Of a stretch of DNA of 64,000 nt, positions 2,494-47,035 are shown in pieces. Numbering within the stretch: the stretch's first letter is position 1; every line of letters starts with the position of its first letter. The notes beneath the pieces were generated by a model. That model saw only the letters and a program-made list of their open reading frames with translations. It did no database searches and had not been told where the DNA came from. The stretch is from Bacteroidia bacterium (GTDB taxonomy: Bacteria; Bacteroidota; Bacteroidia; B-17B0; Aurantibacillaceae). The stretch is taken from NCBI GenBank assembly GCA_022841465.1, contig JALHRL010000006.1, forward strand, positions 1 through 64,000, written 5' to 3'. Made by a program: the position numbers and the translations under genes.

Positions 2494-3417
2494 ATGCATT
2501 ACACCTTACATCAACTTATCGTTTTTTTAAAAGTGGCTCAATTAAAGAGTATTACTAAGGCTTCTGAGGAATTAAACATGACTCAGCCCGCAGTATCTAT
2601 TCAATTAAAAAACTTTCAAGATCAATTTGATATTCCTTTAACGGAAGTAGTGGGAAGGCAACTATATGTAACAGATTTTGGAAGAGAAATTGTAGAATCT
2701 GCAGAAAACATTATTAACCAAGTTTATGCCATAAATAACAAAACTTTAGCCTATAAGGGCCAGTTATCAGGAAGATTAAAAATTTCTGTGGTTTCAACCG
2801 GTAAATATGTGATGCCCTATTTTCTAACTAATTTTTTGCAACAACATTCCGGAATTGAGTTATTGATGGATGTAACAAATAAGAATAAAGTATTAGAAAG
2901 TTTAGAAAACAATGAAGTTGATTTTGCGCTTGTTTCTATTTTGCCTACAACAATGAATGTAGAGAAACTTGATTTGCTGCAGAATAAATTGTATTTGGTA
3001 GGTAATTCAAATAACAAATTTTTAAGAACAACCAAAACGAAAGATGTTTTTAAAGATTTACCATTAATTTTTAGAGAAAAAGGTTCTGGTACTCGGCAAA
3101 CAATGGAAAGTTTTATTGAGCGCAAACGTATTTCTGTTTTAAAAAAAATGGAGTTAACATCTAATGAAGCCGTAAAACAAGCATTGTTAGCCGGTTTGGG
3201 GTATTCTATAATGCCTTTAATTGGAATAAGAAATGAACTTCATAACAACGAATTGCAAATAATTTCAATAAGTGGGTTACCAATTAAAACTACTTGGAGC
3301 CTTATTTGGTTAAAAGGAAAAAAACATTCACCTGTTTGTTTATCGTTTTTAGAATATTTAAAAAAGGAAAAAGCACAAATAGTTCAAGAAAAATTTAGTT
3401 GGTACGAACAGTATTAA
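2494..3417 (+). CDS. LysR-family transcriptional regulator
   Basis: A 307-residue protein with the standard LysR layout. Residues 1-60 are a winged helix-turn-helix (LHQLIVFLKVAQLKSITKAS, then ELNMTQPAVSIQLKNFQDQF). Residues from about 90 are a periplasmic-binding-like effector domain starting LKISVVSTGKYVMPYFLTNF. LysR proteins normally bind a small-molecule co-inducer and regulate a divergent neighbour. Here the divergent neighbour is the two-TM membrane protein and icd transcript, so control of icd is a reasonable but unproven guess. The binding domain resembles the CysB/CbbR side of the family, but I cannot name the ligand. Confidence 0.85.
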   Translation: MHYTLHQLIVFLKVAQLKSITKASEELNMTQPAVSIQLKNFQDQFDIPLTEVVGRQLYVTDFGREIVESAENIINQVYAINNKTLAYKGQLSGRLKISVVSTGKYVMPYFLTNFLQQHSGIELLMDVTNKNKVLESLENNEVDFALVSILPTTMNVEKLDLLQNKLYLVGNSNNKFLRTTKTKDVFKDLPLIFREKGSGTRQTMESFIERKRISVLKKMELTSNEAVKQALLAGLGYSIMPLIGIRNELHNNELQIISISGLPIKTTWSLIWLKGKKHSPVCLSFLEYLKKEKAQIVQEKFSWYEQY

Positions 3418-4963: not shown

Positions 4964-5908
4964 ATGGAACTTACTTTAATAATAGTTGGCCTAATAGGCC
5001 TATGGATAGGCACCAAGTTTATAATAAATAGTTCCTTGGGTATTGCAACAAAATTTAAGCTGTCTCATTCTTTTGTTGGTGTGGCTATTTTAGCCGTAGG
5101 AACTGATTTGCCTGAAGTTTTTGTTTCTTTAAAAGCATCTTTTTTGCAATTGAAAGGAATTGAATCATCCGGCATTATAACCGGGAATGCAATTGGAAGT
5201 TGTATCAGTCAAATAACTTTAATTTTAGGAGTGGCAGGTTTGTTTTTAAAATTTAGTATTTCAAGAAAAGATTTTATAAGAGACGGAACAGCCCTGTTAG
5301 GTTCTATAATTTTATTGTATTTGTTTGGAATGGATGGAAGGATAACCCGTTTAGAAGGAGCGACAATGTTGATGTTGTATATCATCTATTATGTTGTACT
5401 AATTAAAACGCAAACAGCTGCTGAAGAAGAAGAGGGGAATGGAGGTGTAATTTACTCCAATACAAAATTAGCTTTAATGTTACTTGCCGGGTTTGTTATA
5501 TTAATTTTTGCGTCTCATTTAGTGGTAGATAATTCTATGTTACTTGCCGATAAAATGGGAGTGGCCCAGTCGTTTGTTGGTATTGTAATTATTGGTCTCG
5601 GTACCAGCTTGCCTGAATTGGCCGTAAGTATTGGAGCTGCATTTAAAAAAGCAGCAGGAATGTCGGTAGGGAATGTAATAGGAAGTAATATTTTTGATGG
5701 CTTAATACCTATTGGTTTGGGCGGAACTATTAGCGAAATTAGTTTGGATAGTAATTTAATGAAAGTGGATATTCCTTTACTTTTTGCCGCAACATTATTT
5801 GTATTACTTTTTTTAAGAACGAAAAGAGGTATTTCAAGACCGGAAGGTATTGTGTTGTTGCTTATGTTTGCAGGATATTTACTTATTAAAATTTCAAGCA
5901 CCCTCTAA
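4964..5908 (+). CDS. CaCA-family calcium/sodium antiporter (YrbG-like)
   Basis: A 314-residue inner-membrane cation antiporter built from two repeated five-TM halves. The alpha-repeat motifs are visible: GTDLPEVFVSLKASF with GNAIGSCISQ in the first half, and GTSLPELAVSIGAAF with GNVIGSNIFDG in the second. These supply the ion-binding acidic and Ser residues in Na+/Ca2+ exchangers. The expected role is export of Ca2+ in exchange for Na+ or H+; the actual ion is inferred from the family. The first repeat has GSCISQ where the second keeps the more usual GSNIFD. Its 3' end overlaps the convergent DUF4256 gene by 23 bases. Confidence 0.9.
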   Translation: MELTLIIVGLIGLWIGTKFIINSSLGIATKFKLSHSFVGVAILAVGTDLPEVFVSLKASFLQLKGIESSGIITGNAIGSCISQITLILGVAGLFLKFSISRKDFIRDGTALLGSIILLYLFGMDGRITRLEGATMLMLYIIYYVVLIKTQTAAEEEEGNGGVIYSNTKLALMLLAGFVILIFASHLVVDNSMLLADKMGVAQSFVGIVIIGLGTSLPELAVSIGAAFKKAAGMSVGNVIGSNIFDGLIPIGLGGTISEISLDSNLMKVDIPLLFAATLFVLLFLRTKRGISRPEGIVLLLMFAGYLLIKISSTL

Positions 5909-6467
5909 ATGCTCTGGAGCCATAATAAGATTCAGCACCGTTGTGATATACAAACACCCTGCCAAAACGGTAATCGCCAAAAATGGCACCACCCAATTTA
6001 CGCACCTCAGGCGGTGTTTTTAACCAACTGGATGTTTTTGTATCAAAATTTCCTAACTCTTGCAATTGGCGGTATTGTTCTTCGGTTAAAATTTCAATCC
6101 CCATTTCTTCGGCCATTTCCATAGCGCTGCTTTTGGGTTTAAATTCTTTTCTCGATTTCAAAGCTTCTCCATCGTAACACAAGCTTCTTCTTTCTTTGGG
6201 TGTTTCGGCAACGCAATCAAAAAAAGTATACTCGCCGGTTTTTTTATCAAAGGCAACTACATCGGGTTCACCTCCGGTTTTTTCCATTTGGTAAATAGAC
6301 CATAATTTTTCTTCTACCCCTTTGCCGCTGCCTTCTAACTTGGCTTGTACCTTGGCCCAATCAATTCCTTTGTGACGCTTTTCGTTTTTTTCAAAACGTG
6401 CTTTTAAAACCTTCAGTAATTCTTTGCGCTCATCGGCCGATAATTTTTTTATTGTTTGCTTTGCCAT
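5886..6467 (-). CDS. DUF4256 family protein
   Basis: A 193-residue soluble protein recognised as DUF4256 from its conserved body: GKGVEEKLWSIYQMEKTGGE, PDVVAFDKKTGEYTFFDCVA, SAMEMAEEMGIEILTEEQYR and LGGAIFGDYRFGRVFVYHNG. The function is unknown. It follows the DUF1905 gene with 8 bases between stop and start, so the two form a small operon. The tail overlaps the end of the antiporter gene on the other strand. Confidence 0.88.
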   Translation of the reverse strand: MAKQTIKKLSADERKELLKVLKARFEKNEKRHKGIDWAKVQAKLEGSGKGVEEKLWSIYQMEKTGGEPDVVAFDKKTGEYTFFDCVAETPKERRSLCYDGEALKSRKEFKPKSSAMEMAEEMGIEILTEEQYRQLQELGNFDTKTSSWLKTPPEVRKLGGAIFGDYRFGRVFVYHNGAESYYGSRAFRGCLKF

Positions 6468-6475
6468 TTTAATAT

Positions 6476-6775
6476 TTACAGTAAAATTAATACTTCTACG
6501 GTTTTTCCGGCAACAATATTTTCTTTTTTCCTTATTTCGGCTTTTAAGGGAAGTAAATAAGTATCCATTTTTGTATCAAACCAAATGGCAGTATCCCATT
6601 GGCTGTTATTAATTTTTGCCTGGGCTTTTAATCGTCCCCAACCTTCTTCTTGCCACTTTAAATTTTCTCTAATTTCTTTGGCCAAGTTTTTAGGTAAAGA
6701 AATAAAATGCCAGCCCCCCGGCGAAGAATGCTGCCAAGGCTTGGCAGAGAAGCTGTATTTTATTTTGGTGGGCAA
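6476..6775 (-). CDS. DUF1905 domain protein
   Basis: A 99-residue protein matching the DUF1905 beta-barrel fold (SSPGGWHFISLPKNLAKEI, then GWGRLKAQAKINNSQWDTAI and YLLPLKAEIRKKENI). The function is unknown. The only available start is a TTG at 6775, with an in-frame TAA two codons upstream. The attC-like site at 6826-6870 lies about 50 bases upstream, so the native 5' end may have been replaced by the insertion of the cassettes. The DUF4256 gene follows in the same transcript. Confidence 0.75.
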   Translation of the reverse strand: MPTKIKYSFSAKPWQHSSPGGWHFISLPKNLAKEIRENLKWQEEGWGRLKAQAKINNSQWDTAIWFDTKMDTYLLPLKAEIRKKENIVAGKTVEVLILL

Positions 6776-6825
6776 GGGTTATCTATTGTAATTAAATAAA
6801 ACAAATTAAATATTTATATAATTAT

Positions 6826-6870
6826 GTTACGTAAGTCTGACCGCTGGTCGTTTGATTGCTGTTACGTGGT
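6826..6870 (-). repeat. attC-like recombination site downstream of the Tyr-rich gene
   Basis: Directly after the stop of the Tyr-rich gene, GTTACGT occurs twice on the plus strand (6826-6832 and 6861-6867). Because the first copy reads GTTACGTAAG, the outer ends form an inverted repeat (ACGTAAC against CTTACGT on the minus strand) around a perfect GACC-GCT-GGTC hairpin at 6839-6849. The segment shares a motif with the site at 7964-8030: both read CCGCT, then CGTTT, then TTGCTGTTA. Paired R-type boxes around a hairpin are what integron attC sites look like. At about 45 bases this one is short for an attC. No integrase is in the window. Confidence 0.4.
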
Positions 6871-6871
6871 G

Positions 6872-7951
6872 TTAATTTTCATAAAACTCATATTTAAAGG
6901 TTTCTTTATATCCTTTATGTTCAATATCTATTATAAGTCCATTATTTTCGAAATAATATATCATATCATTTTCAATAACTCTGAAGTTATAATGTGCAAT
7001 CGTCTTCACAAGTTTAAAATTGTCATAATAGTTATTAAATGTATAGTATGTGTATTTTAATTCAAACTTTTTTCCATATTTCTCTTTACGGTCGATTGAT
7101 GTTAAATATCCCATTTTGTCATAATGCATAGTGTAGATACTGCTATATTTTGGTTGTTTTTTTTCAAATAATATGCTCTTTGAAATTTTATTTGCTTTAT
7201 TTTTTATTATAAGATTTTGGAAAGTGTATGTTGTGTCATAAATTTGGTCATATTCAACACTTGTTATTAATGTTTTATTTTTACTCGGATATTCAAAGTA
7301 CCTTTCATAGTCAATGGCAGGTTTGTTTTTATAAGAAATGCTTTTTAGTTTTCCATTAGGATAGTATCGATAGTTTGTCTCTATGAATCTATATCCTTTA
7401 GGTTTAAATCTAATTGCTTTTTTCAATGAATCATATACCTTAATCAATTCTTGCTGTTTACGAACCTGAAATATTATTTCATCCTTTACATGAATTGTTT
7501 TTTCAATTAAACTATCCTTAAAATATCTAATTACTATTGAAGTGTCATTTGAATTTAGGTATTTATAATATACTTTATTAAGTTTTAGGCTATCTGTTTT
7601 AGTTAAATATTGGCAAATAGGATATTGAAAATGTTCAAGTAAATAACCATATTTATTATAATTGTAAATTTTTACTAATGAATACGGACTATGGGTCCCA
7701 GAATAGTTATTTATTGCGTTTTGAAAATGTTCTTTATTTACAAAGTATAAGCTGTCAAGAGATTCACCGGGGATATAAACCCTTATAGATTTAATTTTAA
7801 AGTATTTTCTTTCTTCTCTAAATAGGTCATTTGTAAGGTCTTTGAATGAACAAGCTTGATCTATAAAGTCATGATTAAATTCAAAAATCGAGGCGTCATT
7901 TTGTGCTATTAGCTTAAAGGATAATATGAAAAATATGAATGTCCGTATCAT
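6872..7951 (-). CDS. Exported Tyr-rich protein of unknown function
   Basis: A 359-residue protein with a signal peptide (MIRTFIFFILSFKLIAQ) and no further TM segment, so it is probably periplasmic or at the outer membrane. The body is rich in Tyr, Lys and Asn and contains loose repeats of the type RYYPNGKLKSISY and MHYDKMGYLTSIDRKEKYG, reminiscent of MORN/YwqK-like beta-hairpin repeats. I do not recognise a named family. It lies between two attC-like sites in the same orientation as the reverse transcriptase, so it may be a separate mobile gene cassette. No promoter match was seen directly upstream; transcription may come through from the reverse transcriptase side. Confidence 0.7.
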   Translation of the reverse strand: MIRTFIFFILSFKLIAQNDASIFEFNHDFIDQACSFKDLTNDLFREERKYFKIKSIRVYIPGESLDSLYFVNKEHFQNAINNYSGTHSPYSLVKIYNYNKYGYLLEHFQYPICQYLTKTDSLKLNKVYYKYLNSNDTSIVIRYFKDSLIEKTIHVKDEIIFQVRKQQELIKVYDSLKKAIRFKPKGYRFIETNYRYYPNGKLKSISYKNKPAIDYERYFEYPSKNKTLITSVEYDQIYDTTYTFQNLIIKNKANKISKSILFEKKQPKYSSIYTMHYDKMGYLTSIDRKEKYGKKFELKYTYYTFNNYYDNFKLVKTIAHYNFRVIENDMIYYFENNGLIIDIEHKGYKETFKYEFYEN

Positions 7952-7963
7952 TTTTTTATCTGC

Positions 7964-8030
7964 GCATCTTAATTACGAATCGAGCGATGACCGATTATGC
8001 CCGCTTACGTTTATTTGCTGTTAGCATCTT
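7964..8030 (-). repeat. attC-like recombination site downstream of the reverse transcriptase
   Basis: Lies between the reverse transcriptase stop and the next start. Reading the minus strand, it opens with TGCTAAC (8026-8020), the exact reverse complement of GTTAGCA found just before the reverse transcriptase ATG. An imperfect hairpin follows, in which AATAAACG pairs with CGTAATT and AAGCG with CGCTC. GCATCTT appears at both ends of the segment (7964-7970 and 8024-8030). The clear left box, the central hairpin and the position between two same-strand genes fit an integron attC. The second box does not match the GTTRRRY consensus well. Confidence 0.45.
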
Positions 8031-8041
8031 CCCAATCATTT

Positions 8042-9550
8042 TTAGTCCTTGGGAAACAAAGTTAAATGCTTTAAAAGTGTAATGTCAGGCTTTGTTTTTA
8101 TTTTGGTAAATAATTCAATGTCTGGATATGAAAAATAACATTGTTTGTTTTCTTTTATAGATTTCAAAAGAGGGTTGTCGATTTTCTTTGGCCAATTAAT
8201 TTTAAAAAGAGAATTAGTCCTAATGAAATAGCTTAACCAAACAAGTATAAAAATGTTATCAGTAGGATTTTTGATTTGTTCTTTAAACAAGTCTTGGATT
8301 GCCCTTTTTATAAATGAAGAGATTGCTTTGTCAGCTTTATTAGCTTGATAAAGGCTTTCAATAATTGCGAGAATTTGCGGAAAACATTTTGGGCGCTTCG
8401 CTTTAAGCAGCAGCAGTAGGCTTATAGTCTTGTTAATTTCTTTTCCTGTAATAACAAGTTTCAAATTGTGACTTTTTGAAGATAGTTCGCTTACAAATCT
8501 GTCGATTATACCTGTATCGGGATGGTTTTTATGCAACCTTAAAACGGCTAAGTAAGTTTTTTCAAACTGTCTAAAGCTGATGGTTTTTCGATACCTCAAA
8601 GTGTGTTTTGAATATTCGGAAATCCAATTTCGATAAAGCCCTTCAGGTAATTCACCAATGTCTGACTTATTTTCACTTAAATTTAAATTATATTTCCTTA
8701 ATTCAGATTGCAAGGACTTAATTATAAATTCTCCGTCGCCTTTCGTTTTACATAGAAATCTATAATCGTCTTTAAATCGAACGCCTAGAAATTTTATTTT
8801 CTTTTTCTTTATAAGTTTCGAAAGTTCTGTGTCAACTGCAGCGAGAATGATTTCAGAAATAAGGTCAGTCAAAGCTGAGCCAATTCCGATCCCATTAGTG
8901 CATCCATCATTTGCATTCTGAAAGAGTTTATCAATTTTATTTCCCGTTAAGTTATATTTAAATCTGTCAGCTCTAGCGTTATCTTTTCCATGGAGTGCCC
9001 AAGAGATACTATGAGTGTAAACTGAAGGGTAAAAGTTTTTTATGTCGGTCTTAAGTATAAAATTGTAGTTGTGAGCTTCGGCTACCAAATCGTTTTCGGC
9101 CATTTCAATGTATTCATAAATCATCCGTCCGCCGCGCAGTTTGCCCAAGTGAGAGTCGACTTTCGAAGTTATTGGAATTGGGAAACTATAGGCATGTATC
9201 TTATTGTCTTTATGAAAAAGCGTGTTCAAAATTAATTTCCAGTCCTTTTTAACATAGAGACAAATGTCATGATAGATTTTTGGATCAATAATTGTAAATG
9301 AACGATCTGTAAGATGTGATTTTTGAAGAAAAATCGAAATTGATTGCGTAATAGGCGGTTTAAGACTACTGCCTGTTTTCGGATAATAAGGAGTCTTATT
9401 GAGTTTAAATTTATTTACTTTAAAACAAGGTGGTAAAACAAATTGCTCAGGAAAATATCCATCGGTAACAATCCAATCGGCAATATTCTTCGCTCCAATT
9501 TTCGAGATTAATTTTTTTGTCTGACGGATATGTTTTTCTGGATATGTCAT
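8042..9550 (-). CDS. Stand-alone reverse transcriptase, Abi/UG-like (candidate phage defence)
   Basis: A 502-residue RNA-directed DNA polymerase. Catalytic motif A is LKTDIKNFYPSVYTHS (Asp169), motif B NGIGIGSALTDLISEIIL (219-236), motif C RFKDDYRF with Asp261-Asp262 in an FKDD box in place of YxDD, and motif D LNLSENKS. About 200 further residues form a helix-rich C-terminal region. There is no maturase/HNH domain of group II introns and I see no retron-type NAxxH/VTG signature. The YTHSIxWAxHGK segment after motif A is one I associate with the unknown-group/Abi-like RTs, several of which are antiphage (DRT) systems. The ATG is 7 bases from a cassette boundary box, leaving no room for an upstream ncRNA within the cassette. 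The subgroup is unassigned. Confidence 0.88.
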   Translation of the reverse strand: MTYPEKHIRQTKKLISKIGAKNIADWIVTDGYFPEQFVLPPCFKVNKFKLNKTPYYPKTGSSLKPPITQSISIFLQKSHLTDRSFTIIDPKIYHDICLYVKKDWKLILNTLFHKDNKIHAYSFPIPITSKVDSHLGKLRGGRMIYEYIEMAENDLVAEAHNYNFILKTDIKNFYPSVYTHSISWALHGKDNARADRFKYNLTGNKIDKLFQNANDGCTNGIGIGSALTDLISEIILAAVDTELSKLIKKKKIKFLGVRFKDDYRFLCKTKGDGEFIIKSLQSELRKYNLNLSENKSDIGELPEGLYRNWISEYSKHTLRYRKTISFRQFEKTYLAVLRLHKNHPDTGIIDRFVSELSSKSHNLKLVITGKEINKTISLLLLLKAKRPKCFPQILAIIESLYQANKADKAISSFIKRAIQDLFKEQIKNPTDNIFILVWLSYFIRTNSLFKINWPKKIDNPLLKSIKENKQCYFSYPDIELFTKIKTKPDITLLKHLTLFPKD

Positions 9551-9557
9551 GGGGTGC

Positions 9558-9580
9558 TGCTAACTTCCAAACAAGCGCTA
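9558..9580 (-). repeat. attC-like right boundary (R' half-site) upstream of the reverse transcriptase
   Basis: On the minus strand this reads AGCGCTTGTTTGGAAGTTAGCA and ends at a GTTAGCA box 7 bases before the reverse transcriptase ATG. The 3' box and the CGCTT...GTTT...GTTAGCA spacing resemble the flank on the other side of the gene in inverted orientation. Only the right half is clear; the left half towards 9610 is degenerate. Confidence 0.38.
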
Positions 9581-9659: not shown

Positions 9660-10454
9660 TTATTTGTTTTTTACAGCACTTAGGCTATACACCATAGGGA
9701 TGGCATTGCTTAAATGTTTTATTCTAAATTTTCCGGGTTCAAATTCTTCGGTATGTTTAAAGCAATTATAGGGCGAGTAATTGTATTCTTTAAAACTGCT
9801 TAATTGCAGGCCTTGCTTTAATAAATTATTTATTACTTCTTCCAGGCTGTGGTTCCAGCCTACGTATTGTTGTTGTATGTTGGCTTCGCGGTTGGCGTAG
9901 GTGCCCGTTTGCGTTTCTACAATGGGGCCGGTGTTAAAATAATTGTAAGCTACTTTTTCAAAATCATCGTCAAACATCCACACCACCGGATGAAATTCTG
10001 CAAACACAAATTGTCCGCTCGGTTTTAAAAAGGTTTTTACAATACTTGCCCATTTTTCTAAATCGGGTAACCAGCCAATGGTGCCGTAACTGGTAAATAC
10101 AATATCAAAGGTTTTGTTTAAGTGTTGGGGTAAATCATACACATTGCAACAAATAAATTCGGTAGTGGTGTTTAATTGTTTGGCAAATTGTTGGGCACTG
10201 GCAATGGCTTTGTCGCTTAAATCTACTCCTGTAACTTCAGCGCCCATGCGGCTTAAAGAAATGGTATCTTGCCCGAAATGGCATTGCAGGTGTAAAATGC
10301 TTTTGTTTTTTACATTACCCATTAATTCTAATTCAATTTCTTTAAGGGTGTTGTTTCCTTTTAAAAAACTTTCAACATCGTAAAATTCAGAAGTAAGGTG
10401 TACTTCTGTTTTATTATTCCAGGCCTTACGGTTTATATCAATGTAATTTTCCAT
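9660..10454 (-). CDS. Class I SAM-dependent methyltransferase
   Basis: A 264-residue soluble methyltransferase. SAM-binding motif I is ILHLQCHFGQDTISLSRMGA near residue 55, followed by the acidic motif II VTGVDLSDKAIASAQQFAKQ and the post-motif segment CCNVYDLPQHLNKTFDIVF. QCHFGQD replaces the usual ExGxGxG loop, a variant shared with a known Bacteroidota group (methyltransferase domain 11/25 type). The substrate is unknown. The stop lies about 80 bases from the attC-like half-site, so this gene is probably the first chromosomal gene beyond the cassette region. Confidence 0.88.
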   Translation of the reverse strand: MENYIDINRKAWNNKTEVHLTSEFYDVESFLKGNNTLKEIELELMGNVKNKSILHLQCHFGQDTISLSRMGAEVTGVDLSDKAIASAQQFAKQLNTTTEFICCNVYDLPQHLNKTFDIVFTSYGTIGWLPDLEKWASIVKTFLKPSGQFVFAEFHPVVWMFDDDFEKVAYNYFNTGPIVETQTGTYANREANIQQQYVGWNHSLEEVINNLLKQGLQLSSFKEYNYSPYNCFKHTEEFEPGKFRIKHLSNAIPMVYSLSAVKNK

Positions 10455-46360: not shown

Positions 46361-47035
46361 TTACCATTCAGCAGGACCAAATCGTTTACTTACTTTATGT
46401 TCCGGAAACAGTTGATAAAACAGTTGGTCGGGCCAAAACAGCGCTTTTACGCTAAACGTTGGCGAAAATAATTTATCGGAAGTTTTCTTGTAGTTTCTTA
46501 AAACAAATCGCTGCGCAATATCTCCGCCTGCACCAAGCCATTTAAATATTTTAAATTGTATGGTAATACCTGGTTCGTATAGCAACAAAAAGTGTTTAGG
46601 GTCTTTGTTATTTATATCATATTTTGTTTCTTTCTGAAACCACGATGCTCCTGCGCCCACTTGTATAGGAACGCTTAATTGCCAACGCTTGGTGCGATGA
46701 AAAACAAAATCTATATAATAACACAAATAGGCTAATTTTAAATAACGTATGCTTTCTTCCATTTCACCATTAAAATTTCTTACCAGCGTTGAAGTTTGCA
46801 AATTAGTTTTTAGCCAACTTACTCCACCACCCATTCTTAATCTGCGCTTATATGCAATTCCTAATCGCACACCTGAAATTTCTATTAAATTGGTTTTATA
46901 TACACTAAACCGCGATTCAAAACGCGCATCAATTCCCGATTTGCTTTTAAAAATAAGATTTAAAGAATCTAAAAATTGCGCATCGGTATTTTTGCAATAA
47001 AAAAGAAATATAGTTATGTAAAATATTTTCTTCAC
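46361..47035 (-). CDS. Exported outer-membrane-like protein of unknown function
   Basis: About 224 residues from the GTG at 47035, chosen because the following sequence is a signal peptide (KKIFYITIFLFYCKNTDA); a TTG three codons earlier is the alternative. The body has alternating strands typical of a small outer-membrane barrel (VYKTNLIEISGVRLGIAYKR, LAYLCYYIDFVFHRTKRWQL, PIQVGAGASWFQKETKYDIN, TFSVKALFWPDQLFYQLF). No family name can be given. It is divergent from recG. Confidence 0.68.
   Translation of the reverse strand: MKKIFYITIFLFYCKNTDAQFLDSLNLIFKSKSGIDARFESRFSVYKTNLIEISGVRLGIAYKRRLRMGGGVSWLKTNLQTSTLVRNFNGEMEESIRYLKLAYLCYYIDFVFHRTKRWQLSVPIQVGAGASWFQKETKYDINNKDPKHFLLLYEPGITIQFKIFKWLGAGGDIAQRFVLRNYKKTSDKLFSPTFSVKALFWPDQLFYQLFPEHKVSKRFGPAEW

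Follow-up and report, generated by a model that had tools for sequence, protein, structure and literature searches.

Integrons and Related Systems

By current understanding, integrons arose with the acquisition of the I2 helix by an integrase; the helix docks the extrahelical bases of the attC site, which makes single-strand recombination safe, and it is described as a requirement for cassette capture that is not known from other proteins (PMC7790495). In Bacteroidetes proper, complete integrons were found with IntegronFinder 2.0 only from Salinibacter ruber (PMC9024848). The locus described here lies on the minus strand of a 64,000-nt stretch of DNA (the window) from a Bacteroidia bacterium, the genome of which (G000) comprises 3.77 Mb in 125 contigs, and consists of a reverse transcriptase (RT) gene and a gene encoding an exported protein, each followed by part of an attC-like site. 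We read this segment, with a probability of roughly 0.87, as the remains of two cassettes of an integron-like system of the Bacteroidota, a reading that includes the working and origin proposed below. The system is a new integron variant with a different recombinase and site design. Its support lies in sequence and comprises a correspondence between cassette ends (the cassette rule), covariation within the site hairpin, strand asymmetry, co-location and same-strand order of the recombinase gene, attI-like sites, and junctions indicative of cassette movement.

The arrays of this system share with canonical integrons a tandem series of mostly single-gene, same-strand cassettes parted by long imperfect palindromes, R-box complementarity between cassette start and end, the CGTTR junction, an attI-like site beside a tyrosine recombinase gene, a bottom-strand bias, and a cargo of toxin-antitoxin (TA) and defense genes. 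They differ in that the recombinase falls outside the IntI clade, has no I2, usually carries an N-terminal domain of ~100 residues, and is encoded in the same orientation as the array. At the sites themselves, extrahelical bases give way to A.C (T.G) mismatches and to arms with a constant asymmetry of 4 nt, and the 7-nt R box to a barcode made up of two or three boxes spread across some 14 nt; a promoter-like motif is present in about half, and the hairpin core is apparently separable from the cassette. The name attC is used for these sites by analogy, because textbook integrons have another recombinase and another site geometry. The window locus and many small clusters resemble a cluster of attC sites lacking an integrase (CALIN) in having no adjacent recombinase gene, but differ in that the cognate-looking recombinase belongs to a different family and in that the window sites are halves.

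Cassette Rule and Site Structure

In 100 segments between adjacent sites, the bases that directly follow GTTA are reverse-complementary to those with which the same segment ends before the next TAAC. Start and reverse-complemented end of the same cassette match at frequencies of.93,.91,.90,.89 and.80, followed by two near-always mismatched positions and then by.76,.68,.68,.74 and.55; across one site, or with partners taken from other cassettes, the match is about.3. This start/end correspondence is the R'/R'' relation of one integron cassette, extended over the roughly 14 nt that the rule spans. The fourth base covaries too (GTTG...CAAC) in one 9-kb cassette, placing the junction at or before GTT|R. 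The main open reading frame lies on the site strand in 94 of the 100 cassettes, with a median coverage of 82%.

These correspondences bear on the possibility that the hairpins are terminators or elements resembling miniature inverted-repeat transposable elements or repetitive extragenic palindromes, inserted between genes and only coincidentally integron-like. Dispersed palindromes with internal promoter-like motifs would suit such elements, as would the behavior of a duplicated 312-nt cassette, the body of which can part from the hairpin core. Insertion by target duplication, or into a palindromic target, would however leave similar sequence on the two sides of an element, whereas the complementarity observed joins the two ends of a gene segment (about.9 vs. 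about.3), and inserted elements would leave the order, the strand and the proximity to one recombinase unexplained. We consider this explanation scarcely credible and retain the integron-like system as the preferred reading.

Complete sites of this system are imperfect palindromes of the form TAAC...CGTTA, 89–187 nt in length. A finder based on arm pairing returned 129 complete sites in 0.54 Mb of sequence from the same genome and its family, against 1 in three one-strand shuffles, and at least 56 complete sites were counted in the loci of the same genome with Y/R allowed at the fourth position, against 0 in shuffles. The site stem is a 24-bp helix that is 91% paired, with a covariation of 0.69 (0.17 when shuffled) and almost no G-U pairs, values that are partly selected in that many studied regions were chosen by the presence of sites and the finder demanded paired arms. 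Among the first 17 sites, which were found by their 5′ half alone, the 3′ half is present in all but the two window sites.

The site arms show the constant 4-nt asymmetry. Where the stem has conserved mismatches, they read A.C on the top strand and form T.G wobbles on the bottom strand; the hairpin formed by the bottom strand has the greater stability in 112 of 129 sites. Allowing a single-base bulge gave a better stem in 14 of 129 sites only and consistent extrahelical bases are absent, making a folded bottom-strand hairpin without regular extrahelical bases plausible. A Bacteroidota-type promoter-like motif was identified inside 67 of the 129 sites. An Rfam scan of the window and the arrays placed no family on the sites. 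A Flavo-1 RNA (Rfam RF01705) adjoins an array on contig 10 of the same genome (L031:6674-6761).

The Window Locus

Within the window, GTTAGCA is located at 9564-9558 (minus), 8 nt 5′ of the RT ATG, and TGCTAAC at 8026-8020 (minus), directly past the RT stop codon. The original prediction had noted this pair as exact reverse complements, and the complementarity was found to extend further: the RT cassette start GCAGCaCCCCA and the reverse complement of its end, GCATCttCCCA, match at 8 of 9 informative positions and show the same two mismatches as all such cassettes. None of 100 other cassettes matches either RT end as well as the RT's own partner does. The left boundary of this cassette, GTTAGCAGCACCCCA (9550..9564, minus), has the RT ATG closely after GTTA, with GTTAGCAGC immediately 5′ of the gene on the minus strand, and its right end, TGGGAAGATGCTAAC (8020..8034, minus), combines the private barcode with the TAAC box.

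The sequence past the RT gene, TAACAGCAAATAAACGTAAGCGGGC... (7963..8023, minus), was identified by alignment to complete sites as the 5′ half of an attC-like site with the 3′ half gone. Its first 25 bases are identical to those of three complete sites (L137, L038 and L109), with similarity extending over ~43–61 nt; the complete sites that align with it come from the same genome and from relatives. A second 5′ half, TAACAGCAATCAAACGACCAGCGG... (6797..6864, minus), follows the exported-protein gene, its 3′ half gone or decayed; it is identical to a complete site (L034-14594) at 52 of 60 positions and the similarity fades after ~60 nt. Both downstream sites open with TAACAGCAA(A/T)(T/C)AAACG, at 8023-8008 and 6864-6849 (minus), the shared sequence that had been predicted. 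When the genome was searched for this core, as proposed with the prediction, near-copies came up within arrays and at the ends of contigs. By itself the window shows no excess of the core pattern (17 matches vs. 11.6 expected), and the window pattern is taken to exceed chance because the same core recurs in arrays elsewhere in the genome.

The paired R-type boxes around a hairpin that had been proposed for both sites were not borne out: neither has a 3′ arm, for which reason both are classed as half-sites. The finder that recovered the 129 complete sites elsewhere returned zero within the window, and a covariance model (R1) gave just one chance match there, at 46436. The proposed cluster of attC sites therefore stands as regards its integron-type cassettes, but with half-sites it is a relic and not a working cluster. 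The RT and exported-protein genes were also considered as a single two-gene cassette, which was rejected since the RT start and the end past the exported-protein gene show no correspondence.

Several points weigh against the cassette reading. The 3′ arm is absent from both window sites, and the start boundary of the exported-protein cassette is lost. The sequence 5′ of the RT's GTTA scored 26 against attC 3′ arms, which is not significant (null mean 24, maximum 31). The rule match of the RT ends, with P(≥8) = 0.011 among 100 real cassettes in shuffled pairings, is modest when taken alone, and the pairing statistics of the complete sites share the selection described above. The methyltransferase gene flanking the RT occurs in 10 of 40 genus genomes (60–67% identity) with no shared neighbors, and the empty site is unreadable; comparison yielded none because the flanks are not syntenic within the genus. 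Recombination by the array recombinase is inferred from sequence rather than from experiment, and the defense role of the RT is drawn from homology.

Such points would fit an explanation in which the window genes are ordinary chromosomal genes beside chance or degenerate hairpin copies, as only half-sites are present, the left arm before the RT is unrecognizable and an empty site is not demonstrated. Against this stand the 25-nt identity of the half-site past the RT to complete sites, the end-to-end match with its two fixed mismatches, the sporadic distribution of the RT, and the occurrence of UG14 RTs in cassettes of another family. We regard chromosomal genes with chance hairpins as improbable, and the remains of two cassettes as the better account of the locus.

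The sequence 5′ of the RT was also compared with one attI (TAGCGC-N9-AGTTAGCAGC); the likeness was not significant and was not used. The flanking genes were predicted to be chromosomal and look so by Pfam: outside the cassettes lie a SAM-dependent methyltransferase gene (9660..10454, minus) on one side, and on the other a DUF1905 gene (6476..6775, minus) followed by a DUF4256 gene (5886-6467).

Array Recombinase and attI-like Site

The prediction that the cassettes lack an integrase holds at the locus, where none is present, but not for the genome, as a cognate-looking tyrosine recombinase with an attI-like site and arrays is encoded on contig 2. The gene (276549-277721; 391 aa) is followed in order by a HigB-like toxin gene, a helix-turn-helix (HTH, HigA-like) antitoxin gene, the attI-like sequence and a first cassette that starts GTTAGCAGC and ends GCTGCTAAC, after which the contig breaks inside the site. 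The HigBA-like pair between the recombinase gene and the attI-like site (L037:7787-8440) is absent from this position in most relatives.

Of 87 family genomes, 49 encode a relative of the recombinase at 49% identity or more, and many of these genes lie at the end of a contig. An attI-like site (...AGTTA) lies downstream of the recombinase in 14 of 16 arrays, mostly about 100 nt past its stop codon, and the first cassette, which begins at this site, agrees with its own end at 8–9 of 9 positions. In 80 named loci taken from the genome collection, 47 sites were counted, of which 46 share the strand of the recombinase gene; every one of these 46 lies downstream of it.

The search for an integron integrase returned no canonical IntI over the cut-off in this genome. 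The array recombinase scores about 210 bits with TIGR02249, below the cut-off of 265, and passes NF040815 ('site-specific tyrosine recombinase/integron integrase') with 225 bits against a cut-off of 220. Catalytic residues are invariant across the recombinase family. The K motif and HxxR lie 59 residues apart in 42 family members and 58–59 in 13 wider members, compared with 100 in 17 canonical IntI and 62–66 in Xer, and alignment with IntI4 places 24 residues where IntI4 has 66. The predicted structure (pLDDT 86, pTM 0.54) has no helix at the I2 position and is nearest to IntI4 (2a3v, the closest solved fold) and XerA. As judged from these alignments, the array recombinase is distinct from canonical IntI in being without the roughly 41-residue insertion (I2). 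Canonical IntI, array recombinases and Xer form separate, well-supported groups in a quick tree calculated with no bootstrap, the array recombinases standing apart from 19 canonical IntI with SH-aLRT values of 99 and 100.

An ordinary CALIN, with canonical attC sites and a canonical IntI elsewhere in the genome or lost, would account for the cassettes, the attI-like site and the CGTTR junction, all of which are integron architecture, and the TIGR02249 score and the IntI4-like fold point the same way. It is nevertheless unlikely, given a genome with no IntI over the cut-off, a recombinase clade apart from the 19 canonical IntI and without the insertion, and a recombinase gene co-oriented with its array. 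The constant 4-nt arm asymmetry without consistent extrahelical bases also argues against it: at 20 canonical IntI neighborhoods, the same finder gave the +4 geometry no more often than in shuffles, a comparison that concerns this geometry only, the finder being specific to it, with classical attC giving no positive control. The integron-like system described here fits these observations better than canonical sites do.

XerA (the archaeal-type Xer) is a further close relative, sharing with the array recombinase the NF040815 cut-off, the fold and the catalytic residues. The array recombinase differs in its linkage, which is to attI-like sites and cassette arrays and not to dif, and in having a C-terminal SPFDxL motif and an extra N-terminal domain. 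Smyshlyaev et al. (PMC8138268) report that the insertion is not fully conserved within their 'integron-like' subgroup, and the array recombinases may for this reason already sit unnamed in it. Two tRNA genes lie beside a tyrosine recombinase of another clade on contig 30 (L035:2171-3716), convergent with the array 3′ end; this region is possibly an unrelated integrative element.

Proposed Mechanism and Cassette Movement

A working cassette of this system begins with GTTR and a private barcode, continues with usually one same-strand gene, and ends with the complementary barcode and YAAC. Neighboring cassettes are separated by the attC-like hairpin, a long imperfect palindrome with a promoter-like motif in about half of the cases. 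The recombinase, which is of the XerA/IntI type of tyrosine recombinases and whose gene lies a short way 5′ of the attI-like site, probably binds the bottom strand folded into a hairpin and probably exchanges strands at C|GTT. In this way it could integrate cassettes at attI, excise them, change their order and, on occasion, place them at other positions. An insertion of the latter kind may have brought the RT and exported-protein cassettes to this chromosomal place, where the 3′ halves of the sites were subsequently lost, a loss that is proposed to have fixed the cassettes there.

Sequence junctions in the arrays indicate site-specific movement. Five pairs of cassette starts are 98–100% identical over 60 nt while standing behind unrelated sites (29–69%), and the identity stops at CGTTA; in one such pair (L038, L109), one start is from this genome and the other from a different species of its genus. 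The attC of a textbook integron moves together with its cassette. A 312-nt cassette is present twice in a related genome (G052), at L137 (minus 2734-3046) and L138 (minus 6034-6346), and the two copies, 99.4% identical, have unrelated hairpins on both flanks. In a second pair, from the genome of the window, the cassettes are 88% identical and the downstream hairpin differs. Based on these two cassette pairs, hairpin and gene segment seem to be separately exchangeable.

Cargo and Defense Genes

The RT gene (8042..9550, minus) encodes a 502-aa protein of the UG14 group and is the cargo of cassette 1. Its best PADLOC match is RT_UG14 (E = 9e-198), covering residues 2–501 of 502 and thus full-length, and it matches Pfam RVT_1 with the FKDD catalytic motif intact. 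The RT resembles UG14/DRT (defense-associated RT) and Abi (abortive infection) RTs in these features and in its relation to the Drt4, Drt6 and AbiP2 models, and differs in being carried as a cassette. A possible defense gene had been predicted here, in agreement with this match, and the RT is probably a single-gene antiphage defense.

The RT had also been expected to vary among close relatives, and RTs of the window type are present in 1 of 87 family genomes and 3 of 395 class genomes. Another UG14 RT, in genome G801, is a cassette in a chain of four, each with ends matching at 10 of 10 positions, with a related site type of 2-nt asymmetry. A second UG14 candidate (G537, L312) had weak cassette ends (8 of 10, second best 7) and was not counted. 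No UG14 RT was found in viral contigs, and plasmids held only distant relatives, all below 60% identity.

The cargo of cassette 2 is the exported protein (6872..7951, minus; 359 aa) with a signal peptide-like N terminus, for which searches of Pfam, NCBIfam and PADLOC gave no match. Exported proteins are a common cargo type in array cassettes, and other cassettes of the same genome carry many exported proteins of unassigned family as well as a Gp49/HTH TA pair. On contig 30, an Avs2-like gene of 1449 aa (L035:4837-9186; PADLOC E = 1e-164) is alone in a 4.9-kb cassette with matching ends. A single 9.0-kb cassette on contig 10 (G000:C10:22814-31839, in L032), GTTGGCAGC...GCTGCCAAC, carries complete type I restriction-modification genes and a SIR2-type prokaryotic Argonaute.

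Distribution and Significance

Among the hosts of the 80 named loci are Flavobacterium palustre, F. limicola, F. soli, F. psychrophilum, Pedobacter, Arundinibacter and Algoriphagus, and arrays occur in Flavobacterium, Pedobacter, Algoriphagus and many uncultured Bacteroidia. A covariance model that detects short-loop sites only located sites in 53 of 87 family genomes and, with stricter settings, in 51 of 395 class genomes; canonical IntI was present in 105 of 395 genomes (other classes of the phylum). No earlier description of this system was found in the open full-text papers that were searched.

Both I2 and consistent extrahelical bases are absent, yet the arrays look fully integron-like, making the I2 hypothesis directly testable; either a solution other than I2 exists, or the system is a sister or ancestral state. 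The arrays may represent a second integron lineage, in the Bacteroidota and some lineages beyond, that captures cassettes on folded single-stranded sites without an I2 helix or extrahelical bases, in which hairpin and gene are separately exchangeable and the cassette is a barcode-bounded segment, and which is a main carrier of defense genes. We give this wider proposal even odds. Arrays in Flavobacterium, Pedobacter, Algoriphagus and uncultured Bacteroidia would fill a gap in the integron map, and the RT, Avs2, type I restriction-modification with SIR2-type Argonaute, and TA cargo suggests that the system may be a major route for the spread of defense genes in the phylum.

Outside the phylum, Halanaerobacter jeridensis (Bacillota, L236) encodes a relative of the recombinase with four complete sites downstream. 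A related array on contig 120 of G801 (L314) has a 2-nt rather than 4-nt arm asymmetry and one inverted site, and is perhaps a second subtype with its own recombinase.

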